From Pseudomonadota bacterium (GTDB taxonomy: Bacteria > Desulfobacterota > Desulfobacteria > Desulfobacterales > Desulfolunaceae), in NCBI GenBank assembly GCA_018818835.1, contig JAHIRD010000135.1, positions 1 through 62,930 of the forward strand: a stretch of 62,930 nucleotides of DNA. The letters are read 5' to 3'. Every line of letters begins with the position of its first letter. Position 1 is the first letter of the stretch. The notes beneath the pieces are model-generated. The model had not been told where the DNA came from, did not search any database, and saw nothing but the letters and a program-made list of their open reading frames with translations. Below, one piece after another: positions 1 to 16,182 of the stretch. The translations under genes and the position numbers were made by a program.

Positions 1-3000
1 CCCAACTTAAGGATTCTGTCCTATGAACTTTACACCAACAGTTTTGAACTGCCCACAGCCGAGCCCATTGCCGATGTTGTGCCCGAGCAGTACGACCTCA
101 GTTTGAATCTGGAGGTCGAGTCCATGGCCAAGGATACCACCCTGCCCGTGGACATCACCTTTGATCTGGTCATCGGAGGAACCACCTATCCCATGACCTT
201 TTCTGAGCCCAATGAATACAACCTGCTCCGGAAAAAGGACAAACAGACCTATGAGGTCACATGCCGGTCCGAGGACAGGGACGGCTATCCTGCAGGCGAC
301 CATTGCGCGTCCCTGTATCGTCAGGAACAAACCGGTAAAACCTACAGCCTGCTCATGAATGCTGACGCCTACAATGCATTAAAAGATATGACCACGGACA
401 CGGTGTGTTCCCTGGTGGTTAAAATGGACCCGGACCTGACTGTTGAGGAGTACAACGACAACCTGGCCGACAACACCGTGACCCTTACGGTGATGTTTTT
501 GGCACCGGAACCTGAGTCCAAATCATCGAAAATGAGCGTTCAACCGGGATACACAGAAAAAAACATTTTTAATAAAAAAGGCGGACAATCATTCGGCAAT
601 GATGACTTCGGGATCGGTTATGAAATTGGCCCAAAAATGGATTACAGGTATGTCATGTCTGACGGATATGAATCGCCTTATGCCGTTAACTTTGAAGGTA
701 CCGGCAAAGTCACGGGGAAAATTTTCAGCATTGACGTCACACCCCTCGAAGTGGGGCCGAAATTCGATTTTGATTTCAGCACCGGAGGCTTGGAACAATC
801 CTATTTTGATTACGGGCTGTGGACCTTCGGGCTTCGGATTTGGGGCCAAAAATACACCATGCCCAGCGATTTCAGAACGAAAGGTTATGTCATTCTCTGG
901 GAGAGTAAAGACGAAGAAGGCAATGAAAAATACGCCAAACGAAAGGAATATACAAAAAAGAGAACCTTTATACTCGGAGTGGTTCCTGTCACGGTGGAGG
1001 GCGGTATTGTGGGTGAAATCGGCATCCGGGGAGCCATTATATTTGAAACGGGCAACACGTTGTCCTTGGAAGCGGGACCCTATGCATCCCTCACGGGCAT
1101 GCTTGAAGGCAGCCTGGGTGTGTCCGGATTCAATGTGGGAGTCGGGGTCGAGTTGACTCTCATCGATATCGGTCTGAAGTTCAATCCCAACCTGATGATA
1201 AAACCCGAGGTTCCCATCGCAATTCTTGAGTTGAAGGTTCCCATCACCATTTCAACCTTGAACGGCAGCGCCTACGTGTTTGCCCGGGCTTTATTCTGGG
1301 ATGAAAAATACGAAATCATCTCATGGCCCGGTTACACATACGAAATCAATTTCTTTCCTCTCTGGTACAAGGGCTATGGCGCCACCGATCTTTATAATGT
1401 GAGTTATTATCCCTCCGTCGATTTTACCGGTACGCCCGTTGCCGGAGGACGGGACGGATTCCTGTCCAGTGACTGGGAGTATGGCGGCCCCCCCGAACTG
1501 AACGGACAGGTGGATTATTTTTCCGCCATCTATGAAGGATACTTTGAATTTTCCGGAACGGACGAATACATCTGGGGAGACTCCAGCGCGGCTTATGGCA
1601 GTACGTACACCTTTTATGCGAACAGCGACGATTATCTGACTGTCAAGCTGGACGACGAGGATATTCTGACCAATAACTTCGGCCAGACCCAGTTTACGTC
1701 GGCCATCCCGTCCGGTTTCCATAAACTTACCGTGAATTACAAGGAACTTCACTCACCGGCCTTTGTGGAACTTTACTGGGCATCGCCAAACCAGTTCGCC
1801 ACCTTCTACTACAACAACATGGACTTTTCCGGAGATCCGGTCCTGTTTGAAACCAATGATAAAATCGATGAAAAATGGGGATCATCAAGTCCGAAACCCG
1901 GCGTGGTGAACGCGGATTATTTCAGCGTCCGATATGAAGGGGATTTCACCTTCCCCGTTTCAACGGACTATCTATTCAACGGCTATGGAGATGACCAGGT
2001 GCGTATCTACGTAGACAATGAGCTGATCCTTGACAACAACGGTCACTGGTGGGAATCGTTCTCAGTGTCCAAATCTATGACGGCCGGAACCCACCATGTC
2101 AAGGTCGAATATATGGAATCCTGGGGAGGAGCCGCTGTCAAGGTTAATTGGGCTCCCAAGGACACCTTTGTGGGTGTCTATTACAACAACCGCACCTTTT
2201 CCGGTTCACCGGTTCGAATCAGTAACGATGGCGGTTACCTCAAGGCTGATCCGGGATTGTGGGAACATTATTTCAAGACAAATTTCGGTTTTGGCAGGCC
2301 TGCGAATGATGCCAATGTGGCCAGCGATAACTTTTCCGCCCGGTGGCAAGGCGCTTTTTATTTCGACGGTGGAACATACGAATTTGTCACAGCCAATGAT
2401 GATGAAATGTCCGTATGGATTGATGATACCTTGGTCGGGTCCTACACAGCCTGGGGCCTGGCCCATCTTGAAACCATGGATGTCTCTCCGGGATGGCATA
2501 TCATCCGTATTAATTACGTGGAATACGCAGGAAATACCATGGCCTCGCTCAAATGGGGGAAAAAGCAAAAAAATATCGTCACCGAATCCTACGGACGAAG
2601 TTTTGATGAGTTCGGCAACATGATCTGCAATGCCATCAACCGCCGCACCACGATGGACTCTAACTGGGGCGGTGGAGCCCCTGAGGGTGAATGGCCTCTC
2701 GGGGGAAATGATTATCAGGTGACCTGGGAAGGGGATTTTGATTTCGACGGGGCTCCCTACCGATTCAAGTCCGGAGGCGATGATGTGGTCAAGGTCTACC
2801 TGGATAACGTCAAAGTCGTCGAGGCGGCCTGGCAAGATTGGAATACCCATGATTACAGTATGATTCCCATGAATCAAGGGACCCATCATGTCAAAGTCGT
2901 GATCACTGAATATGGCGGCGGATGCTGGGCCAAGGTGGCATGGGAAAAGCTCGAACCTGAAAAATTTTATGCCCAGAAATTTGAATGTGGGGCCTGTGAT

Positions 3001-3318
3001 GTGGGATATTCTTTCGATACGGTCGGGAAAATCGTTGATTACGATTGGGGAGGCGGATCCTACGCCGGCAACACGGATAATTACCTGATCGTCTTTAACG
3101 GTGTTTTCAATTTTGATTCCGATGGCACCTATCGTTTTTTCGGATCCGTGGATGATGATCTCCATGTGTACATCGATAATGTCCATGTTCATCATCGTGG
3201 AAGTTGGGGAACATACTCGTTCAAACAAACCTTGAAAAAAGGCTACCACTCAATTAAACTCCGCTACTCGGAAGGCGGGGGGAACAGCCATGTAAAATTC
3301 CAGTGGGTGAAAGAATAA
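1..3318 (+). CDS. Giant PA14-repeat surface protein, C-terminal part (5' end outside window)
   Basis: The reading frame is open from base 1, so this is the 1,105-residue C-terminal part of a larger protein. It is collinear with residues 2332-3428 of the giant lipoprotein at 5896-16182 along its whole length, so the two genes are tandem paralogs. Visible order: a CARDB-like beta domain (codons 1-175), a conserved glycine-rich beta module (about 180-460) and five PA14-like modules (starting near 1387, 1801, 2167, 2580 and 2960) with the recurring pattern F-YYNN, W-G, DNFS, YEGDF, DDxxxxYxDN and GxHxxxVxYxE. PA14 modules in other proteins bind glycans or mediate adhesion. Whether the missing N-terminus also carries protease domains cannot be seen. 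Export is inferred from the paralog's lipobox. Confidence 0.85.
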   Translation, partial: PNLRILSYELYTNSFELPTAEPIADVVPEQYDLSLNLEVESMAKDTTLPVDITFDLVIGGTTYPMTFSEPNEYNLLRKKDKQTYEVTCRSEDRDGYPAGDHCASLYRQEQTGKTYSLLMNADAYNALKDMTTDTVCSLVVKMDPDLTVEEYNDNLADNTVTLTVMFLAPEPESKSSKMSVQPGYTEKNIFNKKGGQSFGNDDFGIGYEIGPKMDYRYVMSDGYESPYAVNFEGTGKVTGKIFSIDVTPLEVGPKFDFDFSTGGLEQSYFDYGLWTFGLRIWGQKYTMPSDFRTKGYVILWESKDEEGNEKYAKRKEYTKKRTFILGVVPVTVEGGIVGEIGIRGAIIFETGNTLSLEAGPYASLTGMLEGSLGVSGFNVGVGVELTLIDIGLKFNPNLMIKPEVPIAILELKVPITISTLNGSAYVFARALFWDEKYEIISWPGYTYEINFFPLWYKGYGATDLYNVSYYPSVDFTGTPVAGGRDGFLSSDWEYGGPPELNGQVDYFSAIYEGYFEFSGTDEYIWGDSSAAYGSTYTFYANSDDYLTVKLDDEDILTNNFGQTQFTSAIPSGFHKLTVNYKELHSPAFVELYWASPNQFATFYYNNMDFSGDPVLFETNDKIDEKWGSSSPKPGVVNADYFSVRYEGDFTFPVSTDYLFNGYGDDQVRIYVDNELILDNNGHWWESFSVSKSMTAGTHHVKVEYMESWGGAAVKVNWAPKDTFVGVYYNNRTFSGSPVRISNDGGYLKADPGLWEHYFKTNFGFGRPANDANVASDNFSARWQGAFYFDGGTYEFVTANDDEMSVWIDDTLVGSYTAWGLAHLETMDVSPGWHIIRINYVEYAGNTMASLKWGKKQKNIVTESYGRSFDEFGNMICNAINRRTTMDSNWGGGAPEGEWPLGGNDYQVTWEGDFDFDGAPYRFKSGGDDVVKVYLDNVKVVEAAWQDWNTHDYSMIPMNQGTHHVKVVITEYGGGCWAKVAWEKLEPEKFYAQKFECGACDVGYSFDTVGKIVDYDWGGGSYAGNTDNYLIVFNGVFNFDSDGTYRFFGSVDDDLHVYIDNVHVHHRGSWGTYSFKQTLKKGYHSIKLRYSEGGGNSHVKFQWVKE

Positions 3319-3367: not shown

Positions 3368-3505
3368 CTATTGACATCAGCTATGTTTACACGCAAAATA
3401 ACAGTTATGGAATTCATGGGTAGGACTTCGTGTCTGTCCGTCTAACGTGTCCGCAACACCGTTCATAATCTGCACACATTCGATGATATAAGGATGATAC
3501 CGAAC

Positions 3506-5491
3506 ATGAAAAAACGAACATTTATCACCGTTGTTTCCGGACTTGTGACCGTCACCCTGTTTATCTGGATTTTCAGTTATCTTGGGATATTCAAAACAAA
3601 CGGGTTAACGGGTCCGGCACCTGAAAAAAACATCCATGAAGAGGAACCGGTTCCGTCACCCCCCCTTCAGGATGATCTGACGTTGACCTTTTCCCCGGAC
3701 CAGGGAGAAATCCTATCCTATCATGTGGCCATGTCGTCTGATGCGGAGCTTCCTTCAGCTCTTTTTTCGGTGGATGATTCAAAGGCCCCTCCAGCACAGG
3801 CTGACCCAGCCACCCATCTTATTTTAAAAACATCCGGTGACCTTTTTCTGAAATATTATCATCCGGATCAACCCGGGCATGATATCAACGTAGCCGGGGT
3901 TATCGAGGGACTGAGTCTGACGCTGAACGACAAGGTCCCCAACTATACCAAAGGAATGTCGTATCCCTTTGCCTTTGAGATGGATACCAAGGGCTATCTG
4001 AACGATTTCACCTTCACGGCCGGGGTCCCTGATGAGGCTCAGCTTCTGATCAAAACCGTCCTCTATGCCATGCAGACCGTGTATCCCAAGGACCGCAAAC
4101 GCACATGGCAGACCCGGGAGATCGACGCCACCGGACAGTATCAGGCCGACTACCACATTGCGGAACAGAAAAATACAAAAAACGGTTTTTCACTGACAAA
4201 AACCAAGCGGGCCTACCTGATGCTCCATGGCGATTCGTCCCAGATGGCCGAAGGCCTTGCACCCTCCGAAGTGAGAATTGAAACAAGCCGTATTGAAACC
4301 CTGATCCCGTCCAAAGGGGCCTGGATTGTTTCCACGGATCAGAATGAAACCTCGGACATCATGTCCGGTACAAAAAAACTGGGCCGGAGCATCACCCACT
4401 TCTCAGCCGTGCGTCAGGACAAACAGCCCTCCGTGGCCTTTGCCGGTCAGTATACGGATGTGCTCACAGCCCTTCAATCATCCGCCTGGCTCAAGGAAAA
4501 ATACACCGTCACCGATCCGGGATTGAACGCCCTGAGTGCCAATCTGGATTTGGATGCCGCTCTTAAGGCCTTCCTGCTTATGCATTCCTCCCAGACCACG
4601 GCCGAGCGGCAACAGGCGGAAAAATTCATGATCAACTATCTTCGGCAGCATCCCCAGGCCTGCTACGATTTGATTGGGCTTCTGGATAAGGATGCAAAAA
4701 AAGAACGATTCAGTCACGAGGATCAGCTCGAACTTTGGTACCTGATCACCAAAACCGGTCATGAAGACGCCCAGAAGTCCGTGCTTGAGGCGATAAAAAA
4801 TCAAAATTACAGCAACCTGACTCACATTCGGGCCCTGGCCTACATCAACGATTTTGAATATCCCGAACCCTTTGTGGTCGAAGGCTTGTGGAGTTTTTAC
4901 AACGATTTGGACCTGGTAAGCGGCGATGAAAAATCCAGGGAGCTTGGAACCATGGCCCTTTATGCCATCGGCACCATGGGCAGTGATGAAAAACTGAACC
5001 AGTCCCTCAAGCCCGAGATTGGAAAAGGTCTCACGGACTCCCTTCAAAAAGCCCAGGACCCTGAGATTCAAACGCTGACCCTCCAAGCCATTGGAAACTA
5101 TGGCGGCACCGACGTACTCAGCCAGGTCGACCCCTTTTTCACCAGCGACAGCGAGCGGGTCCGCGTGGCCGCCTACGAAGCCATTCGCCGGATGCAGGGT
5201 GACGAAGCCTTCGACACCTTTAAAAAACATTATTCCTCGGAATCGTCCCAGAAGGTCCGAACGTCCGCCCTTAAGATCCTTGAGTCCATGCCCGTCACCC
5301 AGACAAGCATCACCTGGGCCGGACAAGAGGCACTCAAGGTCGACAACAGCGCGGACCAGGAATCCCTGGTCAAGGTTCTGGGGCAAAATCTGAAAGACTA
5401 CCCCCAGTCCGAGCAGGCCCTGCGCCAGCTTCTGGATAAAAAACCGTCAAACATCGTCAAGAAAACCGTGTACCGCTACATCACTCCCTGA
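3506..5491 (+). CDS. Membrane-anchored HEAT-repeat protein with vitellogenin-N-like region
   Basis: A 661-residue protein. The start at 3506 (MKKRTF) is preferred over an ATG at 3494 because AAGGA at 3490-3494 is 11 bases from 3506 and touches 3494. Residues about 6-27 form one N-terminal membrane segment followed by a proline-rich linker, so the bulk is predicted periplasmic. The first half has a beta-rich region ending in a segment of the form YPFAFEMDTKGYL followed by a helix of about 20 residues. This resembles the corresponding part of the vitellogenin/MTP lipoprotein N-terminal domain. The second half is alpha-helical with HEAT-like units (for example LTLQAIGNYGG and VRVAAYEAIRRM). It lies between two paralogous giant surface-protein genes on the same strand, suggesting a shared job such as lipid or lipoprotein handling. 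That role is inference. Confidence 0.7.
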   Translation: MKKRTFITVVSGLVTVTLFIWIFSYLGIFKTNGLTGPAPEKNIHEEEPVPSPPLQDDLTLTFSPDQGEILSYHVAMSSDAELPSALFSVDDSKAPPAQADPATHLILKTSGDLFLKYYHPDQPGHDINVAGVIEGLSLTLNDKVPNYTKGMSYPFAFEMDTKGYLNDFTFTAGVPDEAQLLIKTVLYAMQTVYPKDRKRTWQTREIDATGQYQADYHIAEQKNTKNGFSLTKTKRAYLMLHGDSSQMAEGLAPSEVRIETSRIETLIPSKGAWIVSTDQNETSDIMSGTKKLGRSITHFSAVRQDKQPSVAFAGQYTDVLTALQSSAWLKEKYTVTDPGLNALSANLDLDAALKAFLLMHSSQTTAERQQAEKFMINYLRQHPQACYDLIGLLDKDAKKERFSHEDQLELWYLITKTGHEDAQKSVLEAIKNQNYSNLTHIRALAYINDFEYPEPFVVEGLWSFYNDLDLVSGDEKSRELGTMALYAIGTMGSDEKLNQSLKPEIGKGLTDSLQKAQDPEIQTLTLQAIGNYGGTDVLSQVDPFFTSDSERVRVAAYEAIRRMQGDEAFDTFKKHYSSESSQKVRTSALKILESMPVTQTSITWAGQEALKVDNSADQESLVKVLGQNLKDYPQSEQALRQLLDKKPSNIVKKTVYRYITP

Positions 5492-5895: not shown

Positions 5896-8800
5896 ATGAG
5901 GGGATATCTATCATTGGGCTTGTTGGCCACTGTATTTGCATCGTTTATCCATTTGACCGGATGCAGTGGGGGCGGAGGCAGCGCTCCTCCCCCGGCAACA
6001 GTGATTGTATCGGGAGCTGTCAATGACCAGGATATTCCCGGTGCCACCGTGTCCCTGAAAAGCCTTGTCGGTGATGAAACCCTGGCAAGCACCACCTGTG
6101 AGGCTGACGGCACTTACCTCTTGAATGTGACGCGAGGCGATATTGAGACTGCCGACTACCTGTTGACGGCAACCCACCCGGTCAATGGGCGCAGCCTCCG
6201 ATCCCTTGTGGCCGGAGCCGATATCAAGGCCACGGCCACGTTGTTTTCCTCCCGGCTCACCGTAATCAGCGCCTATACCGAAGCTGCCTTTCTTGATTCA
6301 AAAACCCGGAACAGCTCGGACAGTCCCTTATCCTTCTTGAACCAGTCCATCCGGATCACCGATACAAAATTCCCCCTGTCCACGGGGGTTGATTCCGTGG
6401 ATGCCCTGGCGAATTGGATCAAGGGACGGTTCACGGCAGCATCCGGGGAATCCGGCACCCTTTACACACTCAACCTGATCGCTGAAATTCTTGGAACCCA
6501 CTGGCCGGTATTTTTTGTGAACGGTTCCGATGTTTCCATCACCGTGGCCCCGGAACTGATTGAAGGGGGGGCTGTCCTTTCCGTGGTGTCCTTTGACGGC
6601 GCGGACAGCGTGACCGTGGATGGCGGCACCGTGACCGTCACACCGGCTGTCGCCGGGAGTCAGGGACAGGTTGTATTGCAGATATCCCTGGGGGAAACAG
6701 ATAAAACCGTGACCCTGCCCATTAACACCGCAGGTACATCCGCCTCAACCCAACAGACTCTCCAAGCCTTTGATAACACAATTATATCCTTCGGGAACCT
6801 GATTCTTCAACCCGACCGTCTGTCGTTTACCCGGAATACGGATCTGACGCTGACCGAGCTGGACCTGAGTGCCCTTGCCGACACGTCCATGGGGGACATC
6901 ACCCTGGTGGCAGCCTTTGACGTCCACGTCTCCATTGAGCCCAGCGCTCCGGTGACCCTGATTTATCAGGCCGAAGGGGACCAGGACCCCGACAAAACAG
7001 TACTGATTCACATCAATTCCGCCACCAAAAGGGAAACCTATGTGTATCCGGACAGCTACGATGCGGTCACCCACCGGTTCATCTTCACCCTTTCCAGTTT
7101 TTCACCGATCCTCATCGGGACTCTGGCCTATACCCCTGCATACACGATGGGCTCCACCATCACAGCCACGGATCTGTCCGGTAACAGCGCCAAGGTGTTC
7201 GGATTCATCCGTAACCTGTCAGATACCCTGGGCGATGAAGCCCGTCTCGAAGCCCTTGGAACCGTCAGCGGTAACGAGGACAAAATCATTGATTATCTGA
7301 CCCGTCTTTCAAGCAAGGCCCTGGCCTCGTTCATGGCACTTCCGGTCAGTGATGCCAGTGGCCTAAACCGCTTGAAGGACATCACGTTCAAACCCCAGTG
7401 GCTCAGCCTGTCCACGGTCAGAGCCTATGACGAATACTGGCGGCTCCGGACCCGTCTTATGCAGGCCCTGTACCGGGTGACCAATACGCGTATCAACGGC
7501 ATCGGCCGAACCCTGCTCAATGAATACAACACGGCCCATGGGGTGGAGCTTGAAACGGACATCAGTCCTGCCATTCTGGGCCAGGCCGATGCGGACGGAT
7601 ATTATTACCTGTCCATGATGGCCTACCGTGTCCTGAGACGCGGCCTTCAGCCTGCCGATGCGTTTTTTGAAAACACCATGGAGACCATCACGTCCGAGGG
7701 GCTGGACGAATCGGCGTTTCTCACCCGGTATGAAGCCATGGCCGAATGGTTGCAAGGCTATATCGCTTATAAGCTGTTCGTCTCCCCCAAGGTGTACGAA
7801 TCGACCCGTGTTGCCACCGATCAAGGCGTTCTTGTTTTATCCGCACGGAGTTTTTTCAGTGATTCGTCCCGGGCGGCGTATGCCGGACTCTGGCTGGGGG
7901 GCTCTTATCCTTATGCATCGGACAACGATGTCACCGGGGCGGCTGAAGGATTTGCCGGAATCAACGATACCTTGAACGATCTTTCGGTGTTTCAGAGTGA
8001 TCTTGCAACCATCAGGACCAAGGTTCAAAACGACAGCCAGTATCCTCTGGGATCAGCCCTGAACGGGCGAAACTGGGTCGACAGGGGAGCTTATTATATC
8101 CCCCCTGAAATCAATGATGAAATCACCAATCTCACCAACTGGTTGGCCTATCTCAGGAGCCTGTTGCCCGAGGTCTCCACCTGGTATCGTGACTCGGACG
8201 GTGACGGCTACGGAGACCCGGAAACATCCACGGAAGCATCCTTGAGGCCGGACGGCTATGTGGCCGACAACACCGATCCCAACGACGCCAATGCCACCAT
8301 CTATCCAGATTCCCGTGAAATCTGCGGCGATTCCGTTGACAACGACCTGAACGGACTGATTGATGAAGGGTGCAGCAGCCATTACAAGGGCACCGAGACC
8401 ACCGTTCCCCTTCAGCGCAAAAGCAACAACCAGTTTTTGATCCCCGTGGACGTGGGCAATCAGACCCTGAACCTTCTGGTGGATACCGGCTCGGACGCCC
8501 TTTTGGTGTTTGCAGACAAACTGGCCGTGGATACAACGGTCCTGGTGTCGGCCACCCCCTTTACCAAGAGTTATGCCAGCACCACGCGTTCCGGATTCCT
8601 GGCCCAGGCTGCCGTGCAGATCGGGGCCTACTCGGATCCGGACATGACCATCATGGTGGTGACCTCTCCCACGTCGGATAACGATCCATCCCTGACCGCC
8701 AAACAAGCCGACGGCATTATCGGCCTTAGGCGCACCCAGGGCATGTCCATCAGCAACGGCACGGCCTATCCCGATGCGCCGCTCAACACACTGGAGCCCA

Positions 8801-11800
8801 CCATCAATATTTTTGAACTGAACCTGCCACCCACGGGGCCGGCTTCGATTTCCTTCGGCCACATGACCACCCTGGACCGGGCCAAACCCCAGTATGTGTT
8901 CAAGGCCAAGACCTACACGTTCCTGGACCCCGAGCATCCTGCCGATGCCAGCTACGCCGATCTCCAGGTGCCCTTCCGGGCCAAAAGCAAATACGGCGAA
9001 GCCAACACCGGCGAACTGGATGTTCTTTTAGACAGCGGCGCGGTGAGCAAACTGGTGCTCGACACCGAGGTGGCCAAGTCATTGGGCTACGATTCGTTCA
9101 CCAACACCTGGAACCTTAACGACGATGACGAAATCGAGTTCAATTTGGTAGGAGCCGGTGACACCATCACGATTTATCCCAAGTTCAAGGTCTCAGAAAT
9201 CAGCGTGGCGCCCTTGAGTCAGTTGGGCGTGACCTACGAGGCCGTACTGGGTATCGACAGGTGGCAGCATTACGTGGTGGGATTTTCCTACCTGGATTAC
9301 CAGAGCGGCGGACCGGACGGCACCATCCTCATGCTGTTCCGGCCCAACATGGCGGAAGCTTACAGACAGAAGAAGCCCGGTGATCCGCTTAACTACGAAG
9401 ACCTGACCGGACTCAACTCCCTGGGCGACGATCGGTTCCCCACAGCCGACGAGACCGGTGACCTGATCGCCTTCCAGTCCAACCGGCCAGGCGGCATGGG
9501 CGGCTGGGACATCTATCTGTGGCGGAAAGGGGAGGGCCTCCTCACCTATCCCAACCTGAACAGTACGGGCGACGATGCCGATCCGTCCCTTTCGGGTGAC
9601 GGACGTTATCTGGTGTTTTATTCCAACCGCGACGGGGGCGTTGGCGGCTGGGATATCTATCTGTATGATATTGAAAACCGAGTCTTTGTCGACACACCGG
9701 GCCTCAACTCCACGGCACTGGACCGGACACCCACCCTCAGTACCGACGGCAGGTACATCGCGTTCCGTTCCGAAAGGGATGGCGGTGAAGGCGGCTCGGA
9801 TATCTATTTGTACGACCGGCAGACCGAATCGTTGGTCGCCCTGCCCGGGCTCAATACCGCTGATGGGGAATTCGATCCTGTCCTCAATCAAGACGGCAGC
9901 CTCATCGCCTTTGACCGGGACACCTATGTTGACGATGCCTATGATTCCAGCGTCTATCTTTACAATGTCGCCACCCACACTCTGGACACCTTGTCCGACA
10001 TCAACGGGGAGTCCTGGGACATGGATGCGGTGGTAAGCCCCACCGGCACCTATCTGACCTGCCACACCAATCGCCACAACCCGGCCATGGAACTCTATGA
10101 CCGGAACTTCCTGATTTACAACCGTGAGACCGCCCGCTTCGAGCTGCTCTCCGGCCTCAATACCGATTTCGACGAGGAAGGCCTCTGCTTTACCGGCAAT
10201 GAACAAAGCATTCTGTTCCATTCCAGCCGCCCCGGCGGCATGGGCGGCTCGGATATCTATGTCTACAATCTTGCGGCAGAAACAAACGCTGCGGTTGAAG
10301 AAAGCGACGAGGATCTGCCCGGACAAACCATCCCTGTGATCCGTGATGAGGAGTCGGGGGCCGACACCCTGACTGTGACCACCGGCGACGGCACTGATCT
10401 GATTCTGCTTCTGGACACGGGTGTGTCCGGCATCCTTCTGTTCGCGGATCGTGCACCAACCGGCAACCGCTGCAACGGACCGGTTTCTGTCAACCTGCCC
10501 TATGGAACCCTCAACGCTTCCGAGCAGATCTGCCTGGCTGTCACCGTGGGCGGAGAGACCGCCGAAACAGAAATACCCGTCATTGGAAGCCAGAGCGAAT
10601 ACAACACCCTGGTCCATCGCTCCGACCTGCCCGCCGTGGACGGGGTCATTGGGTTCCGGGGCAATTTCCAGAACGAATTCGACCCCAAGATGCTGTTTAT
10701 CGAGTACAGCTTCATTGACAGTGAACCCGGCCTGACCATCGGCACGACTCCCATGACCTCCCTGGCGCGAGGCCAGGGCGAATACGTGTTCGACACCTGG
10801 CTGGACGGGGTGATCGACCCGATAGACCCCGTAAACAAGAGCTACACCAACATGGACCTGACCTTCATCGCCCGGTCCAACACGGGAGAAGAAAGCGAAG
10901 ACGGCAACCTGGCCATGCTCAGCACCATGTTGAAGGATGCTCTGATTCTGGACTTTGAAACGGCCCGAAGTCTGGGTTATTCGGAAATCACCGGCTGGGG
11001 CGTGACCTCCGAGGTCAGCCTGTTCTTTGCCAACGATGTTTACATCCTCCCGGTCGAGATGGGGGCCTATGCGGTCGAAAAAATCGTTGTTGCCGATCTT
11101 TCGGAACAGCACTGCCAGGCGGTGCTTTCTGCCGACCGCTGGATGGACAGCTTTATCGTGGGATTCGCCACCATCGATTACCAGTTCGGCGGTCCCTGGG
11201 GAACGGTGTCCCTGCTTCACGTGAAGGACCTTCCGGCACTTCAGGGTGACACCCTGTCCAAGGGCCGAAACTATATTTCCCTGCCGGGCCTCAACAGCGC
11301 AAGTGACGATGATTATCCCACAGTCAGCATCGACGGCCAGACCATCGCCTTCCAGAGTTCGCGGAACGGTGACAAGGATATTTTTGTTTACAAAATCGGC
11401 CAGGGGCTTGTGTATCTTCCCGGCCTGAACAGCGGGGGCGACGACGAGCATCCATGCATCAGCGGGGACGGTCGACTGGTGGTCTTCCATTCGAATCGGT
11501 CCGGCACCTCAGATGTTTATCTATACGATATCGAGGCCGGTGACTTCATCGACCTGCCCGGCCTCAACACCGAATACGAGGAACGGCAGCCCAGCATCAG
11601 CGCCGATGGCGCCATGCTCGCGTTTCGCAGTCAGCGGCCGGACAGCGTGGGTGGGAGCTGGGATATCTATTTGTACAGTGTCACCAACCTGGCCATGGCC
11701 GACATCAACGGGGCCTGGGTTAACACCGAGGCGGACGAAGAGGCGCCTGTCCTTTCCCAGGATGCCACTCTACTCTCGTTTGTGGCCTATGACCGGCCGG

Positions 11801-14800
11801 ATTCTTTTGGCGACTCCGACGTGTTCGTGTATGACCTGCTCAGGGGCGAGCTTCTCGATCTCCCGGAGGGAACAAACGAAACCTACTGGAACGACGGAGT
11901 GATTGGCGTGGACGGTAAATTCGTTTTGTGCACCTACTACGAGGATACCACCGACTATATCAAACTCATGGAACTCAGTTCGGGCGAGTTTATCTACCTG
12001 CCCGGCCTGAATACTCCATACAATGACTGGGGCCTCCAGGCCACACCCAACGCCCAGTACATCGTGTTCGAATCCGACCGCCCCGGCGGCGAGGGCGGCT
12101 GGGACATCTATGTGTATCAGAGAGACGAAACCGACACCAACACCTACACGGTGACCACCGCCTACAACCAGAGCGGATATGTGACCGATGCCGATGGCAA
12201 CCGGGTTGCGGACGAGGAAATCCGCGCCTACGACAAGACCGGCACCCTGATCGGCGCTACCACAACCGACGGGGACGGAAACTTTACCCTCACGGTTCCC
12301 CAAGGGTCCCAGCTGGGCATCACCTTTGAATCGGTCACCGCCGATCTTTCCATTATCACCGATGATGTGGGAGACGATACCTACGTGCCGGATTTTGAAG
12401 CGGGGAACCTGAAGTTCACCGAGGTCTGGATCGAAGACACGGCCCAGGCTGGCATGACCTCCTCCATTCATTTCGATATCGAGGCCACGGTGCCCAAGTA
12501 CAATACCTATGTCACGGTTTACCTTAAAGCCGGGAATCCGGGAGACATTGTTGTGGATGACGCTTTTGTTCCTGATTACGAACTGACCTCCCTGCTCATT
12601 GATAAACTGGGATTCCGGGGCACAGCTACGGACCCGGTGGTCAAGGAGCAAAAAGATATGACCACATCGGTGACCTATTATCCGGACACCGACAACAAAA
12701 AAGCCTATGTGGAGCACACGTTCATCGTGCCCCAGGGCATTGCCGATGGCATTTACACGGCCGTGTTCGCCATCAACACCTACGATGTATCTCGTGAAGA
12801 CGACGCCCTCCAGGGAGAATCCGACGAGGATCTGGCCGACAACTACATGGTGGCTTCAGCATCCACCATTATCGGAAACCCGACCCTGCCCAACGTTCGG
12901 ATTCTGTCGTATGAACTCTACACCAACAGCTTTGACCTGCCTGCGGAATCTCCGGATCCCGATGTGGTTCCCGAGCAGTACGATCTCAGCTTGAATCTGG
13001 AAGTCGAGTCCATGGGCCAGGACGTGACTGATCCTGTGGACATCACTTTTGAACTGGCCATCGGAGGCACCTCCTATCCCATGACCTTTGCAGAGCCCAA
13101 CGAGTCCAACGTGCTTCGGAAAAAGGACAAGCAGACCTACGAGGTCACCTGCCGGCCCGAAGAACGCGAAGGCTATCCTGAAGGCGACCGTTGCGCATCC
13201 CTGTTTCGTCAGGAGCAAACCGGCAAGACCTATAGTTTGTTCATGAGCGCCGCAGCCTATGACGCCTTGAACAGCATGACCGAAGACACCCTGGCCTATC
13301 TGACGATTAAAATGGATCCCGATCTGATCATCGAGGAGTACAACGACAACAAGGCAGATAACACGGTGACCCTTCCGGTGATGTTTCTGGCACCGGAATC
13401 AGAGGCCAAGAGCTCGAAAATGATCAACCAGCCAGGATCCACCGCAGGGAATCTGTTCAATTTAAAGGGCGGTAATTTTTACGGTAACGATGATTTCGGG
13501 ATTGGATATGAAATCGGACCGAAAATGGATTACAGGCAGATCACCTATGACGGGTTCAACATGCCCTATGCCGTGAATTTTAACGGTACGGCAAGTTTCA
13601 ATGCCACACTTTTCGGGATGTCTGTGACACCGTTAGAAGCCGGTCCGAAATTCGATTTCGACTTCAGCAACGGAGGCCTTGAACAGTCCTACCTGGAATA
13701 CGGCGTATGGGCGTTCGGCCTCCGAATCTGGGGTCCAAGAGTCATGATGCCCAGCGATTTCAGAGCAAAGGGCAGCTTTACCATCTGGGATACGAAGGAT
13801 GATAACGGCAATGAAATGTACGCCAAGCGAAAGGAAAAGAAAAAATCCAAAACATTTATGGTCGGCCCGGTCCCTGTCACCGTTGAAGGAGGCATCGTTG
13901 GTGAAATCGGCATCCGTGGATCGCTCAACTTTCTGGTGGGTAACAAGCTCTCCATGGAAGCCGGACCTTTTCTCTCGTTGTATGGATTTCTTGAAGGTGG
14001 AGTCGGCGTGCCCGGTTTCAAGGTGGGCATCGGTATTGAACTTGTTCTCATGGATGTTGCACTCAAGTTCAACCCCAGTCTGATGGTCAGGCCGGAAGTG
14101 CCCATCGCGATTTTTGAACTCAAGGTGCCCATCACGCTAAATACCATGAGCGGAAGTGCCTACCTGTTCGCCAGGGCTTTTTTGTGGTCGTACAAGTATT
14201 ATATCATCGGCTGGAGCGGCTACACCTATGAAATCAACCTGTTTCCCCTGTGGTACAAGGGATATGGCGCCACGGATTTGTACAATGTGAGTTATTATCC
14301 CTCAAACAATTATACGGGCACCTCTGTGGCCGGATCACGGGAAGGCATTCTGGCCCACGACTGGGGAGCCGGAGGGCCTTCGGAACTGGGAGGCCGGACA
14401 GACAATTTCTCTGCGGTCTACAGTGGCTTCTTTGAATTTTCAGCTGTGGATAAATACATCTGGGGGAATACCAACGCGGGCTTTGGCAGTAATTACACGT
14501 TCTATGTGATCAGCGACGATAGTCTAACCATCACGGTGGATGATAGTCCCATCCTTTCCAATTTCTTCGGTACGACTCAGTTCACGGAATCCATTACTGC
14601 CGGCTTCCACGAACTCAAGGTGAATTTTGCTGAATACGGAGGTCTGGCCAGAGCGCAGGTTTACTGGACCGCGCCCAATCAGTTTGCCACATTCTACTAT
14701 AATAATACGACCCTCACCGGTGATCCGGTGCTGTTCGAAACAACGAACGAGATCAATGAACGCTGGGGCGGGGAAAGCCCCAAACCGGGAATCGTCAATG

Positions 14801-16182
14801 CCGACAACTTTAGTGTCAAATACGAAGGCGATTTCACCTTTCCGGTGACGGGAGACTATTTGTTCACGGCCCTTGCCGATGATGTGGTCCGGATCTATGT
14901 GGATAATGCGATTGTACTCAATAACAATTCGGTCTGGTATGAACCGGCCTCATCCACCGTCGCTGTGACCGCCGGAATCCACAAGGTCCGTGTGGAATAT
15001 GTCGAGTATGGCGGAGCCGCCAATATCCGCGTGGGCTGGGCACCTAAGAACACCTATGCGGCGGTCTACTACAACACCCGAGTCCCAGCGGGTAATCCTG
15101 CACTGATAAGGGACGACGGCGGGTTCATCAGTGCCACCCCCGGCTTGTGGGACCATGTGTTCCTGGCCAATTTCGGTAACGACAGGCCCGCAACCCAGGT
15201 GGCCTATGACAATTTCTCGGTGATCTGGGAAGGCGCCTTCTATTTTGACGGCGGTGACTACGATTTCGTCATGACCCGTGATGACGAGATGACGGTATGG
15301 GTGGACGACATGCTGATCGGCTCCTACACCAACGTCAGGGCCGATCTGGTCACCAAGAAGATTGCCCAGGGGTGGCATATTGTGCGAATATCTTATGTGG
15401 ATCACGATTGGAGAGCCCTGGCCTCGCTCAAATGGGGGAAAAAGAAAAAAAATATCGTCACCGAGTACTTCTGTGACCATTGGAAGACGCCGTTTGCTAT
15501 TAACCGCAGAAACGACATGGTTGCCAACTGGGGCCATGGCGCGCCTCCGGGTGAATTTGCCCTTTGGGGGGATGACTATCACGTGATCTGGGAAGGCGAC
15601 TTTGATTTTGATGGTGCACCCTACAGATTCAAAGCCGGAGCAGACGATGTCATGACCCTGTGGCTGGACAACATCCGGCTTCTCGACGCTGCCTGGCGCG
15701 ATTGGGAAACCTATGATTACGAAGTCCTTCCCATGAACAAGGGGACGCACCATATCAAGGTAGTCTTTTTTGAAAACCATGGCGGGGCCTGGGCCCATGT
15801 CAGCTGGCAGAAAATCGACCCCGAAGAATTCATCGGTTTGAAATTTGACTCAGGAAATACCGATTATGCCCTGGCTATCGATACCAACGCCAGCAACTTC
15901 AACTATGACTGGTCACTTGGCTCTCCGGGTGGAACCGTGGACCATTTCCTGATCAAATGGCTGGGAGTCTTCACCTTCCCAACCGATGGGACGTACCGTT
16001 TTTATGGAACATCCGATGACGACATCTACTTCTATATTGATAACGAGTTTGTCTATAGCCGGGGCTGTTGCGGCGGATATTCCTTCGAAAAATACATGAA
16101 GGCGGGCCAGCATTCCATCCATGCCGACTACTGGGAACACTCCGGAGGGGCTTCGGTGGGAATTAATTGGGAAAGACAATAG
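5896..16182 (+). CDS. Giant lipoprotein: two pepsin-like domains, two propellers, five PA14 modules
   Basis: A 3,428-residue protein. The start at 5896 follows a G-rich ribosome site and gives a lipoprotein signal with lipobox LTGC (C23). Order: a carboxypeptidase-regulatory-like domain (~36-100); a long unrecognised region; a MopE-like motif (DSDGDGYGDP at 766 to C826); pepsin-like module 1 (~828-1148) with D863-T-G, DGIIGL, D1046-S-G and a VLGIDRW segment; six PD40/TolB-type repeats (~1170-1459, DIYLYD motifs); pepsin-like module 2 (~1474-1780) with D1507-T-G but S1676 where the C-lobe Asp should be; six more propeller repeats (~1790-2076); a second regulatory-like domain (~2087-2150); CARDB-like domains; a beta-rich module (~2516-2782); five PA14-like modules (~2796-3428). 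I infer an outer-membrane-anchored, surface-exposed protease or adhesin. Pepsin-like proteases are rare in bacteria (shewasins are known), and their substrate here is unknown. Confidence 0.85.
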   Translation: MRGYLSLGLLATVFASFIHLTGCSGGGGSAPPPATVIVSGAVNDQDIPGATVSLKSLVGDETLASTTCEADGTYLLNVTRGDIETADYLLTATHPVNGRSLRSLVAGADIKATATLFSSRLTVISAYTEAAFLDSKTRNSSDSPLSFLNQSIRITDTKFPLSTGVDSVDALANWIKGRFTAASGESGTLYTLNLIAEILGTHWPVFFVNGSDVSITVAPELIEGGAVLSVVSFDGADSVTVDGGTVTVTPAVAGSQGQVVLQISLGETDKTVTLPINTAGTSASTQQTLQAFDNTIISFGNLILQPDRLSFTRNTDLTLTELDLSALADTSMGDITLVAAFDVHVSIEPSAPVTLIYQAEGDQDPDKTVLIHINSATKRETYVYPDSYDAVTHRFIFTLSSFSPILIGTLAYTPAYTMGSTITATDLSGNSAKVFGFIRNLSDTLGDEARLEALGTVSGNEDKIIDYLTRLSSKALASFMALPVSDASGLNRLKDITFKPQWLSLSTVRAYDEYWRLRTRLMQALYRVTNTRINGIGRTLLNEYNTAHGVELETDISPAILGQADADGYYYLSMMAYRVLRRGLQPADAFFENTMETITSEGLDESAFLTRYEAMAEWLQGYIAYKLFVSPKVYESTRVATDQGVLVLSARSFFSDSSRAAYAGLWLGGSYPYASDNDVTGAAEGFAGINDTLNDLSVFQSDLATIRTKVQNDSQYPLGSALNGRNWVDRGAYYIPPEINDEITNLTNWLAYLRSLLPEVSTWYRDSDGDGYGDPETSTEASLRPDGYVADNTDPNDANATIYPDSREICGDSVDNDLNGLIDEGCSSHYKGTETTVPLQRKSNNQFLIPVDVGNQTLNLLVDTGSDALLVFADKLAVDTTVLVSATPFTKSYASTTRSGFLAQAAVQIGAYSDPDMTIMVVTSPTSDNDPSLTAKQADGIIGLRRTQGMSISNGTAYPDAPLNTLEPTINIFELNLPPTGPASISFGHMTTLDRAKPQYVFKAKTYTFLDPEHPADASYADLQVPFRAKSKYGEANTGELDVLLDSGAVSKLVLDTEVAKSLGYDSFTNTWNLNDDDEIEFNLVGAGDTITIYPKFKVSEISVAPLSQLGVTYEAVLGIDRWQHYVVGFSYLDYQSGGPDGTILMLFRPNMAEAYRQKKPGDPLNYEDLTGLNSLGDDRFPTADETGDLIAFQSNRPGGMGGWDIYLWRKGEGLLTYPNLNSTGDDADPSLSGDGRYLVFYSNRDGGVGGWDIYLYDIENRVFVDTPGLNSTALDRTPTLSTDGRYIAFRSERDGGEGGSDIYLYDRQTESLVALPGLNTADGEFDPVLNQDGSLIAFDRDTYVDDAYDSSVYLYNVATHTLDTLSDINGESWDMDAVVSPTGTYLTCHTNRHNPAMELYDRNFLIYNRETARFELLSGLNTDFDEEGLCFTGNEQSILFHSSRPGGMGGSDIYVYNLAAETNAAVEESDEDLPGQTIPVIRDEESGADTLTVTTGDGTDLILLLDTGVSGILLFADRAPTGNRCNGPVSVNLPYGTLNASEQICLAVTVGGETAETEIPVIGSQSEYNTLVHRSDLPAVDGVIGFRGNFQNEFDPKMLFIEYSFIDSEPGLTIGTTPMTSLARGQGEYVFDTWLDGVIDPIDPVNKSYTNMDLTFIARSNTGEESEDGNLAMLSTMLKDALILDFETARSLGYSEITGWGVTSEVSLFFANDVYILPVEMGAYAVEKIVVADLSEQHCQAVLSADRWMDSFIVGFATIDYQFGGPWGTVSLLHVKDLPALQGDTLSKGRNYISLPGLNSASDDDYPTVSIDGQTIAFQSSRNGDKDIFVYKIGQGLVYLPGLNSGGDDEHPCISGDGRLVVFHSNRSGTSDVYLYDIEAGDFIDLPGLNTEYEERQPSISADGAMLAFRSQRPDSVGGSWDIYLYSVTNLAMADINGAWVNTEADEEAPVLSQDATLLSFVAYDRPDSFGDSDVFVYDLLRGELLDLPEGTNETYWNDGVIGVDGKFVLCTYYEDTTDYIKLMELSSGEFIYLPGLNTPYNDWGLQATPNAQYIVFESDRPGGEGGWDIYVYQRDETDTNTYTVTTAYNQSGYVTDADGNRVADEEIRAYDKTGTLIGATTTDGDGNFTLTVPQGSQLGITFESVTADLSIITDDVGDDTYVPDFEAGNLKFTEVWIEDTAQAGMTSSIHFDIEATVPKYNTYVTVYLKAGNPGDIVVDDAFVPDYELTSLLIDKLGFRGTATDPVVKEQKDMTTSVTYYPDTDNKKAYVEHTFIVPQGIADGIYTAVFAINTYDVSREDDALQGESDEDLADNYMVASASTIIGNPTLPNVRILSYELYTNSFDLPAESPDPDVVPEQYDLSLNLEVESMGQDVTDPVDITFELAIGGTSYPMTFAEPNESNVLRKKDKQTYEVTCRPEEREGYPEGDRCASLFRQEQTGKTYSLFMSAAAYDALNSMTEDTLAYLTIKMDPDLIIEEYNDNKADNTVTLPVMFLAPESEAKSSKMINQPGSTAGNLFNLKGGNFYGNDDFGIGYEIGPKMDYRQITYDGFNMPYAVNFNGTASFNATLFGMSVTPLEAGPKFDFDFSNGGLEQSYLEYGVWAFGLRIWGPRVMMPSDFRAKGSFTIWDTKDDNGNEMYAKRKEKKKSKTFMVGPVPVTVEGGIVGEIGIRGSLNFLVGNKLSMEAGPFLSLYGFLEGGVGVPGFKVGIGIELVLMDVALKFNPSLMVRPEVPIAIFELKVPITLNTMSGSAYLFARAFLWSYKYYIIGWSGYTYEINLFPLWYKGYGATDLYNVSYYPSNNYTGTSVAGSREGILAHDWGAGGPSELGGRTDNFSAVYSGFFEFSAVDKYIWGNTNAGFGSNYTFYVISDDSLTITVDDSPILSNFFGTTQFTESITAGFHELKVNFAEYGGLARAQVYWTAPNQFATFYYNNTTLTGDPVLFETTNEINERWGGESPKPGIVNADNFSVKYEGDFTFPVTGDYLFTALADDVVRIYVDNAIVLNNNSVWYEPASSTVAVTAGIHKVRVEYVEYGGAANIRVGWAPKNTYAAVYYNTRVPAGNPALIRDDGGFISATPGLWDHVFLANFGNDRPATQVAYDNFSVIWEGAFYFDGGDYDFVMTRDDEMTVWVDDMLIGSYTNVRADLVTKKIAQGWHIVRISYVDHDWRALASLKWGKKKKNIVTEYFCDHWKTPFAINRRNDMVANWGHGAPPGEFALWGDDYHVIWEGDFDFDGAPYRFKAGADDVMTLWLDNIRLLDAAWRDWETYDYEVLPMNKGTHHIKVVFFENHGGAWAHVSWQKIDPEEFIGLKFDSGNTDYALAIDTNASNFNYDWSLGSPGGTVDHFLIKWLGVFTFPTDGTYRFYGTSDDDIYFYIDNEFVYSRGCCGGYSFEKYMKAGQHSIHADYWEHSGGASVGINWERQ

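Follow-up and report, generated by a model that had tools for sequence, protein, structure and literature searches.

A giant bacterial lipoprotein with a pepsin-like domain retaining both catalytic aspartates and a predicted pseudopeptidase twin

The window analyzed here, 62,930 nucleotides of a Desulfobacterales genome, encodes a giant lipoprotein in which a pepsin-like domain with both catalytic aspartates (module 1) is accompanied by a homologous domain that lost the second of them (module 2). The reading that we favor, and consider rather probable, is that of an outer-membrane-anchored protease of the A1 type with its own pseudoprotease twin and a lipid-transfer-like partner. The modelled fold of module 2, the homology of module 1, the conservation of the motifs, the loss in module 2 and the linkage of the genes are directly supported, and around them we infer catalysis, location and roles. 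The features of the window that enter the argument are the following:

1..3318 (+): second giant copy, C-terminal part, cut by the contig end (identity to the giant)
3494..5491 (+): partner gene, HEAT repeats and Vitellogenin_N-like, with an N-terminal hydrophobic segment seen by eye (PF13646 2.9e-12, PF01347 2.6e-11)
5896..16182 (+): giant lipoprotein gene, 3428 aa (intact open reading frame, ATG, ribosome-binding-like GGGGGGA, lipobox)
5896..5964 (+): signal peptide with lipobox LTGC, Cys codon at 5962-5964 (translation judged by eye)
8281..8367 (+): MopE-like putative metal-binding motif (PF11617 1.5e-5, 25.6 bits, slightly below the cut-off of 27)
8380..9330 (+): module 1, pepsin-like domain, probably bilobal, in which both Asp are present (PF00026, PF13650, hhalign to pepsins)
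8482..8490 (+): first catalytic motif DTG, Asp863 (motif scan, module-1 alignment)
8572..8574 (+): flap Tyr, equivalent of pepsin Tyr75 (hhalign register with TYGTGSMTG; 8/8 rows of the module-1 alignment)
8710..8727 (+): DGIIGL, hydrophobic-hydrophobic-Gly psi-loop motif of the N-lobe (module-1 alignment)
9031..9039 (+): DSG, the second catalytic motif, with Asp1046 and, directly after it, Ala in the place of pepsin residue 218 (alignment)
9244..9264 (+): VLGIDRW, hydrophobic-hydrophobic-Gly motif of the C-lobe (module-1 alignment)
9340..10305 (+): beta-propeller 1, PD40 repeats (PF07676 3.8e-25)
10315..11229 (+): module 2, predicted pepsin-fold pseudopeptidase (AlphaFold2 pLDDT 78.7, pTM 0.81; Foldseek)
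10414..10422 (+): first motif DTG of module 2, retained here (motif scan, module-2 alignment)
10921..10929 (+): second-motif position of module 2, Ser-Thr-Met, Asp lost (module-2 alignment)
11230..12163 (+): beta-propeller 2, PD40 repeats (PF07676 1.5e-29)
12172..12309 (+): CarboxypepD_reg-like beta domain (PF13620 4e-5, under its cut-off)
14248..16182 (+): PA14 array, at least 4 domains (PF07691 above cut-off in 4/4 slices)

In translation, the frame of the giant gene is uninterrupted from the ATG at 5896 to the stop at 16182, and GGGGGGA lies immediately 5' of the ATG. Its N-terminus reads by eye as a signal peptide ending in the lipobox Cys (MRGYLSLGLLATVFASFIHLTGC), with residue 23 as the last residue of LTGC, and the protein is probably anchored in the outer membrane and faces outward. 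Two relatives (L018 and L019) have an ordinary-looking signal peptide in place of the lipobox type. The first-pass annotation had described a surface protease within a lipoprotein, fused to propellers and PA14 modules, in an architecture unfamiliar to it. Lipobox, PD40 propellers and PA14 array are all present according to translation and Pfam, and no comparable architecture occurs among the literature matches listed, including those on bacterial pepsins. The giant contains four instances of D[TS]G, at residues 863 (8482), 1046 (9031), 1507 (10414) and 3318, and all but the last are preceded by three hydrophobic residues. The complete pattern hhhD[TS]G - DGhhG - hhhD[TS]G (h, hydrophobic) with pepsin-like spacing occurs once, in module 1, and in 0/2000 shuffled versions of the protein.

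Module 1 bears one D[TS]G per lobe (LVDTG and LLDSG), the two-motif arrangement of family A1, and each lobe has a hydrophobic-hydrophobic-Gly motif (IIG at 8716, VLG at 9244) that is invariant in the 8-row module-1 alignment. All the elements from which a pepsin had first been proposed, DTG at 8482-8490, DGIIGL, DSG at 9031-9039 and VLGIDRW, stand in pepsin order and roughly with pepsin spacing. The Pfam search suggested at that stage depended on the query: as a slice, module 1 matches PF00026 with 25.2 bits (cut-off 19.9, in the N-lobe only) and PF13650 with 30.3 bits (cut-off 24.3), while the whole giant protein reaches 24.8 bits for PF13650 (cut-off 24.3) and remains below the cut-off for PF00026 (17.3 bits against 19.9). 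A six-frame search returned 22.2 bits for PF00026 at module 1. At E 0.01, two of the eight aligned members have no PF00026 match, and DUF3443 matches the N-lobe of 5/8. In hhalign, the profile of the N-lobe aligned with five pepsins at E 8.4e-9, and the flap Tyr fell into register; in the controls, the reversed profile gave E 0.24 and the top of 100 column shuffles scored 25.8, compared to 67. All ten A1 hallmark positions, which we selected from the published definition while viewing the alignment, are invariant, compared to 103 out of 317 positions overall (P 1e-5, uncorrected for kinship). The structure prediction of module 1 was of low confidence (pLDDT 41), probably because its 8 alignment rows are too alike; 50 of the 294 matches to this model are listed, with 12-20% identity, and every one is a pepsin-family protease.

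Module 2 was modelled confidently as a two-lobed pepsin (AlphaFold2, pLDDT 78.7, pTM 0.81), which bears out the bilobal pepsin fold expected from the first-pass annotation. The model matches plasmepsin II with a Foldseek E of 4e-12 and 6r5h_A with a VIA Z of 19.6 (rmsd 4.2, 267 residues aligned), and the 50 listed of its 541 matches at E <= 0.001 are all pepsin-family, with 10-14% identity. The bilobal fold of module 1 may be argued from its full-length homology to this model and from its motifs. A single retropepsin-like lobe, the structure that would have spoken against the proposal, is excluded for module 2 by model and fold match and contradicted for module 1 by the two motif-bearing lobes. 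One chain here has two lobes with one motif each, which also sets it apart from the single-lobe class of the PF13650 type, whose chains contribute a single lobe and act as dimers.

The catalytic residues of the two modules have fared differently. Both Asp are kept in 10/10 module-1 copies and both motif Gly in 9/10, with DTA and DSS replacing DTG and DSG in one genome (G028). The second Asp is instead absent in 8/8 complete module-2 copies (7/7 rows of the module-2 alignment and the copy in genome G261), and the first DTG is kept in three. Since the second Asp is missing from every complete copy, module 2 should be a conserved pseudopeptidase, with a pepsin fold but incapable of catalysis. The first-pass annotation had seen two protease modules, and this result rules out two equal proteases: only module 1 has both Asp. 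The second copy that it had reported does exist as a homologous repeat with 32% identity (query residues 34-346 of 351, E 5e-21), but it has Ser-Thr-Met at 10921 and no DSG.

Judging from their sequences, both modules descend from one old duplication. In the tree a 100/100 branch separates module-1 from module-2 sequences, although the tool warns of long branches; the tree includes the paralogue L007 and not the G261 copy, both of which are outside the module-1 and module-2 alignments. We found the giant family in 8 genomes, from Desulfobacterales, Halobeggiatoa and one MAG labelled Hyphomicrobiales, while two other genomes (G143, G230) gave weak matches without a clear module. A plasmid search gave no match. 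When regions with fewer than 100 aligned columns are set aside, module 1 shows the highest similarity in 7/7 comparisons of giants; two small stretches exceed it (one in L017, with 67% over 3 columns, and one in L021, with 60% over 62).

Both modules could be non-catalytic binding domains of pepsin fold, with the module-1 motifs kept for structural reasons. The cockroach protein Bla g 2, an inactive pepsin-fold protein, does appear in the list of 50 structural matches to the module-2 model. The DTA/DSS copy in G028 agrees with this explanation, as do the inactive members of family A1 recorded in the part of the survey of Rawlings and Bateman available to us (PMC2761423). However, the Asp pair, the flap Tyr and both hydrophobic-hydrophobic-Gly motifs of module 1 are invariant in all 8 aligned rows, and module 2 of the same proteins, where the second Asp is gone and the first motif partly so, offers a built-in contrast. 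We consider binding domains alone unlikely, and proteolysis by module 1, as suggested by homology and kept motifs, the better reading.

The C-lobes appear to resemble bacterial single-lobe aspartic proteases more than the C-lobes of pepsins, a likeness that bears on the origin of pepsin. For this comparison we used 17 of 23 single-lobe matches, 12 of which entered the lobe tree, from which the L019 copies were omitted. PF13650 matches 5/6 module-1 C-lobes (E 0.015 to 2.5e-6, one above cut-off) and PF00026 0/6, while eukaryotic C-lobes show the reverse (PF00026, a model made for such proteins, 4/4; PF13650 0/4). The C-lobe profile aligns with the 17 single-lobe proteins across 30 columns that surround the motif (E 1.1e-6, compared to E 0.03 with pepsin C-lobes), although the single-lobe profile is deeper (17 rows against 5) and greater depth favors such matches. 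With pepsin C-lobes, module 1 scores 18.6 and the top of 200 shuffles 19.7 (elsewhere 1/40 shuffles), and the best alignment sets its DSG on the pepsin DTG with a score no higher than the top shuffles. When the N-lobe is compared with the C-lobe of the same protein, 10/300 shuffles score as high for module 1 and 68/300 for pepsins. The N-lobes of module 2 score 59.4 with single-lobe proteins and 43.8 with pepsin N-lobes, and the module C-lobes lie, weakly, beside single-lobe proteins in the lobe tree (65/74). These figures speak for a two-lobed enzyme that arose in bacteria in parallel to pepsin, with either the whole of it or the C-lobe built from single-lobe Asp_protease_2 (retropepsin-like) units. 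On the other hand, the module N-lobes group with pepsin N-lobes (97/86), and the module-1 N-lobe scores 67.8 with that of pepsin, far above the 17.9 with its own C-lobe; both results fit one shared two-lobed ancestor, and we hold the parallel assembly to be doubtful. That the bacterium recently acquired its pepsin gene from a eukaryote, which would agree with the mostly eukaryotic distribution of A1 enzymes in the available part of the survey (PMC2761423), is very improbable given the low identity to the 50 matches listed for either module, the presence of the modules in both Desulfobacterales and Halobeggiatoa with an internal duplication that is older still, and the scores against bacterial single-lobe proteins, which for 3/4 module lobes exceed that of the corresponding pepsin lobe.

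As far as the accessible parts of the sources report, A1-family proteases have a sparse and scattered distribution among bacteria (Rawlings and Bateman 2009, PMC2761423), where the pepsin homologues are 368-561 aa long without a predicted signal peptide and shewasin D is mainly cytoplasmic (PMC2761423, PMC4814920). Like shewasins A and D as described there, module 1 is probably two-lobed, with two D[TS]G, a flap Tyr, two hydrophobic-hydrophobic-Gly motifs and Ala218; unlike them, it forms part of a lipoprotein of 3428 aa that also carries a predicted dead copy and whose gene is linked to that of a partner. Ala at 218 was expected to raise the pH optimum, but the working pH of module 1 is not predictable because shewasins that carry it are acid-active. 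Each module-1 lobe matches PF13650 in several members, as do single-lobe Asp_protease_2 or clan AA proteins (PF13650, TIGR02281), while module 1 has two unlike lobes in one chain. Module 2 lacks the full catalytic pair, as do other inactive pepsin-fold proteins (Bla g 2, pregnancy-associated glycoproteins, xylanase inhibitors), and differs from them in sharing its chain with a module that is apparently active. Module 1 has a sub-threshold match to PF20729 (1.7e-4), a point of likeness to PecA / PE_PGRS35, for which we know of no pseudoprotease twin. In the part of its description available to us (PMC6819658), this mycobacterial surface aspartic protease is also bacterial with DTG and DSG, and it differs in bacterial group, domain context and its route by type VII secretion.

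The first-pass annotation had overlooked both the second giant copy and the linked HEAT/Vitellogenin_N-like gene, whose product resembles yolk and lipid-carrier proteins of animals. The gene occurs in 7/8 giant-bearing genomes and lies nearby in 6; the search did not find it in the Hyphomicrobiales-labelled MAG, and in G216 it is on a different contig from the giant. One further genome (G018, 83% complete) has the partner gene without a detected giant. The partner alignment matched 17 PDB sequences, nearly all alphaRep or HEAT-type, with lipovitellin and MTP absent among them, and nothing like the giant with its partner is among the literature matches listed for bacterial Vitellogenin_N. The second giant copy is 62% identical to the C-terminal third of the giant over 1105 aa, and its N-terminal part is probably the one found on another contig (G000:C194).

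In the working that we propose, the giant lipoprotein would display module 1 outward from the outer membrane as a pepsin-type aspartic protease, in which each lobe would give one Asp to activate a water molecule and the Tyr-bearing flap would close over the cleft. Module 2, an ancient duplicate that kept the fold, should not cut and most likely binds peptides or proteins, whereby it would serve module 1 as scaffold, regulator or recognition site. Propellers and PA14 domains may position the protein or bind glycans or partners, and the HEAT/Vitellogenin_N-like protein would be a functional partner, perhaps a substrate or lipid carrier. More speculatively, and with little probability in our view, the family may be close to the transition from single-lobe enzymes to pepsin, or represent an independent assembly of this design out of bacterial single-lobe units, and form a surface machine of an active pepsin, a substrate-selecting dead pepsin and a dedicated vitellogenin/MTP-like lipid-transfer partner that is processed or loaded.

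The architecture, the probable membrane anchoring, the predicted pair of active and dead modules and the linked partner are new relative to the literature matches listed. All bacterial pepsin homologues found in the 2009 survey lacked predicted signal peptides, and the origin of the two-lobed pepsin was discussed there and left unsettled, in the part available to us (PMC2761423). Here, a putative bacterial enzyme, probably two-lobed, has the appearance of an exported, membrane-anchored protein, and the same chain carries a twin that appears naturally inactivated. This enzyme, its twin and their single-lobe-like lobes make the origin of pepsin by duplication and fusion testable with new sequences. 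The link to a bacterial Vitellogenin_N-like gene suggests an unknown protein or lipid surface system in sulfur-cycle bacteria.

The giant lipoprotein gene is a single unbroken frame encoding 3,428 residues, with N-terminus MRGYLSLGLLATVFASFIHLTGC. It lies among the following features:

1-3318, + strand: C-terminal part of a second giant
3494-5491, + strand: HEAT/Vitellogenin_N-like partner gene
5896-16182, + strand: giant lipoprotein gene
8380-9330, + strand: pepsin-like module 1, within the giant
10315-11229, + strand: pepsin-like module 2, within the giant

From N- to C-terminus, the giant comprises a lipobox, about 740 residues without Pfam match, a MopE-like metal-binding motif, module 1, a propeller, module 2, a propeller, beta domains and a PA14 array. 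Pfam detects seven stretches of PD40 propeller repeats and four of PA14, bearing out the first-pass annotation that pepsin-like modules are fused to propellers and PA14 modules. The MopE-like motif and a CarboxypepD_reg-like domain each score below their own cut-offs.

That annotation had also read module 1 as pepsin-like, and the profile searches agree. The slice 8380-9330 exceeds the cut-offs of both PF00026 (25.2 bits, cut-off 19.9) and PF13650 (30.3, cut-off 24.3); scanning the whole protein gives 17.3, below cut-off, and 24.8. The PF00026 match is limited to the N-lobe. At E 0.01, six of the eight module-1 copies in our alignment match PF00026 and all eight match PF13650. The module-1 profile aligns with five pepsins at E 8.4e-9 over 118 columns, as compared with E 0.24 for the reversed profile, and scores 67.0 against 25.8 for the top of 100 column shuffles. 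It sets SYASTTRSG on TYGTGSMTG of pepsin, which brings the flap Tyr into register. D35, T36, Y65, D111, G112, I114, G115, D218, L290 and G291 are invariant across the eight copies; A1 hallmarks, chosen with the alignment in view, are invariant at 10 of 10 positions versus 103 of 317 overall (hypergeometric P 1e-5, ignoring relatedness). Both Asp are retained in 10 of 10 copies, adding to the eight the paralogue on G000:C194 and the copy in genome G261; the G028 copy carries DTA and DSS. The AlphaFold2 model of module 1 is poor (pLDDT 41) and carries little weight for the fold; of its 294 Foldseek matches at E <= 0.001, the best 50 all belong to pepsin-family proteases, led by chymosin (E 6.5e-7).

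DUF3443 (PF11925) also matches the module-1 N-lobes of L020, L018 and L017, with 3.9e-7 as the best value and the cut-off exceeded in L020; this is a hint that the fold of DUF3443 proteins may be pepsin-like or retropepsin-like. A 337-aa frame from another member of the phylum (L044, G648:C432:2172-2432) weakly matches the module N-lobe (1.6e-5) and is possibly a stand-alone relative.

Module 2 of the window has no Pfam match; sequence comparison shows its homology to module 1 (E 5e-21). Its AlphaFold2 model, built on a 14-row alignment, reaches pLDDT 78.7 and pTM 0.81. Foldseek returns 541 PDB chains at E <= 0.001, of which the best 50 are all pepsin-family and the first is plasmepsin II (4.1e-12); the aspartyl peptidase of C. 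neoformans, 6r5h, aligns over 267 residues (Z 19.6, rmsd 4.2). Because of the model confidence and these matches, the predicted fold is a two-lobed pepsin, and not the single lobe or unrelated beta fold that would have spoken against the annotation. The second catalytic Asp is missing in all eight complete copies (seven aligned rows and G261), being replaced by Ser-Thr-Met in the window and by other non-Asp residues in the rest. The first motif, DTG in three copies and ETG, DTT or DPA in five, is by its sequence also decaying. The proposed pair of pepsin-like modules therefore stands as two domains, the second modelled as two-lobed, but not as two proteases. Module 2 is present in every giant except that of G028, whose one module is of module-1 type, and this retention of a dead copy suggests a functional pseudopeptidase rather than mere decay. 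In a tree for which the tool flagged meeting long branches, a 100/100 branch separates nine module-1 from seven module-2 rows, so the duplication looks earlier than the divergence of the lineages.

Module 1 is the most similar region in all seven comparisons of the giant with its relatives, counting regions of at least 100 aligned columns: for example, its identity is 72% with G001 and 63% with both L016 and L017, comparisons in which other such regions span 27 to 70%. Shorter stretches exceed it in L017 (67% over 3 columns) and in L021, the single-module G028 protein (60% over 62 columns), the latter probably due to only one propeller being available for alignment. For module 2, identity reaches 61% with G001 and, over 118 columns, 67% with the paralogue; with the remaining relatives it is 30-34%.

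In a lobe tree, module-1 and module-2 N-lobes alike fall with those of pepsins (97/86), and the module-1 N-lobe scores 67.8 against pepsin N-lobes versus 17.9 against its own C-lobe, which favours a two-lobed ancestor shared with pepsin and thus A1 membership. Pulling against this ancestor is a likeness to bacterial single-lobe proteins. Module-2 N-lobes score 59.4 against 17 such proteins from related genomes versus 43.8 against pepsin N-lobes; module-1 C-lobes match the single-lobe bacterial family PF13650 in five of six cases and PF00026 in none, with four eukaryotic C-lobes giving the reverse; and the module-1 C-lobe profile reaches E 1.1e-6 against the single-lobe proteins (30 columns) versus 0.03 against pepsin C-lobes. 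We treat this likeness as a lead only, since profile depth is unequal (17 versus 5 rows), and retain the shared two-lobed ancestor as the favoured reading.

In the cited parts of their survey (PMC2761423), Rawlings and Bateman describe A1 homologues from seven bacterial genomes; no signal peptide was predicted for any of them, and six of the seven have Ala218. According to the cited sections, shewasin D (PMC4814920) is an active, mainly cytoplasmic enzyme working at acid pH, and PecA (PMC6819658) is a mycobacterial surface aspartic protease bearing DTG and DSG. Surface location and A1-type domains are thus separately known in bacteria, as far as these sources go. Among the papers listed by our literature searches, none describes an exported lipoprotein of this architecture, a single chain that joins an apparently active pepsin to a dead one, or the Vitellogenin_N-like partner.

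Module 1 is matched in 6 of 389 genomes of the class sample and in 2 of 297 of the phylum sample, namely the source genome and another that matches weakly in the N-lobe. A pattern-based scan of a species-level collection, sensitive only to fairly close relatives, found seven loci: one in a Desulforapulum MAG, two in Desulfatirhabdium MAGs, one in a Desulfobacteraceae MAG, two in Candidatus Halobeggiatoa and one in a MAG labelled Hyphomicrobiales, a label that we do not trust because its module copies group with Halobeggiatoa. The Halobeggiatoa loci (L018/L019) are closely similar tandem giants about 13 kb apart; by eye, they have LamG-like in addition to PA14-like repeats and an ordinary-looking signal peptide with no lipobox. 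Overall, eight genomes bear a giant (G000, G001, G028, G038, G216, G261, G390 and G391), G216 and G392 being counted once as the same genome by coordinates. The source genome has two, the second seen as pieces at contig ends: its C-terminal part occupies 1-3318, and G000:C194:1-4848 (L014) is an N-terminal part ending at the contig edge. The two pieces, compared separately, likely belong to one gene, which suggests a tandem pair of giants flanking the partner gene.

The partner encodes 665 residues and has, by eye, a hydrophobic N-terminal segment. It matches HEAT repeats (2.9e-12) and, over cut-off, Vitellogenin_N (2.6e-11), the latter at profile positions 355-524 of 590 only; its PDB sequence matches are nearly all HEAT-type designs. 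At E <= 1e-20 it occurs in 6 of 6 class-sample genomes with a giant versus 3 of 383 others (G018 strong; G143 and G230 weak; Fisher P 1.8e-11, uncorrected for relatedness). The G018 gene (L064, G018:C365:7232-9118) is a close relative of the partner, in an 83% complete genome with no giant detected. Seven of the eight giant-bearing genomes have the partner, and in six of them it shares a contig with the giant and lies no more than about 5 kb away, the G038 partner being only a fragment at the contig end; a search of G391 did not find it. The Halobeggiatoa partner lies 4.6 kb past the second tandem giant, with at least one low-complexity ORF intervening; the low-complexity ORF ahead of it has at least 749 codons. 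About 25 bp separate the two frames in G028, assuming the first ATG, and in G261 (L063, 1659-12275, - strand) they abut, the best candidate for co-transcription.

Judging from the lipobox, the giant would be anchored by lipid. Module 1, with two Asp and the flap Tyr in place, probably cleaves substrates; going by Ala218, its pH optimum should be raised, but the cited part of PMC4814920 has shewasins with this residue active at acid pH, so Ala218 is no guide to its working pH. Module 2, having lost its Asp, would on balance act as a binding or regulatory pseudopeptidase, and the PA14 modules and propellers may, from their families, bind glycan or protein. Because the genes are linked and co-occur, which we rate the best functional clue, the giant and its partner probably work together.
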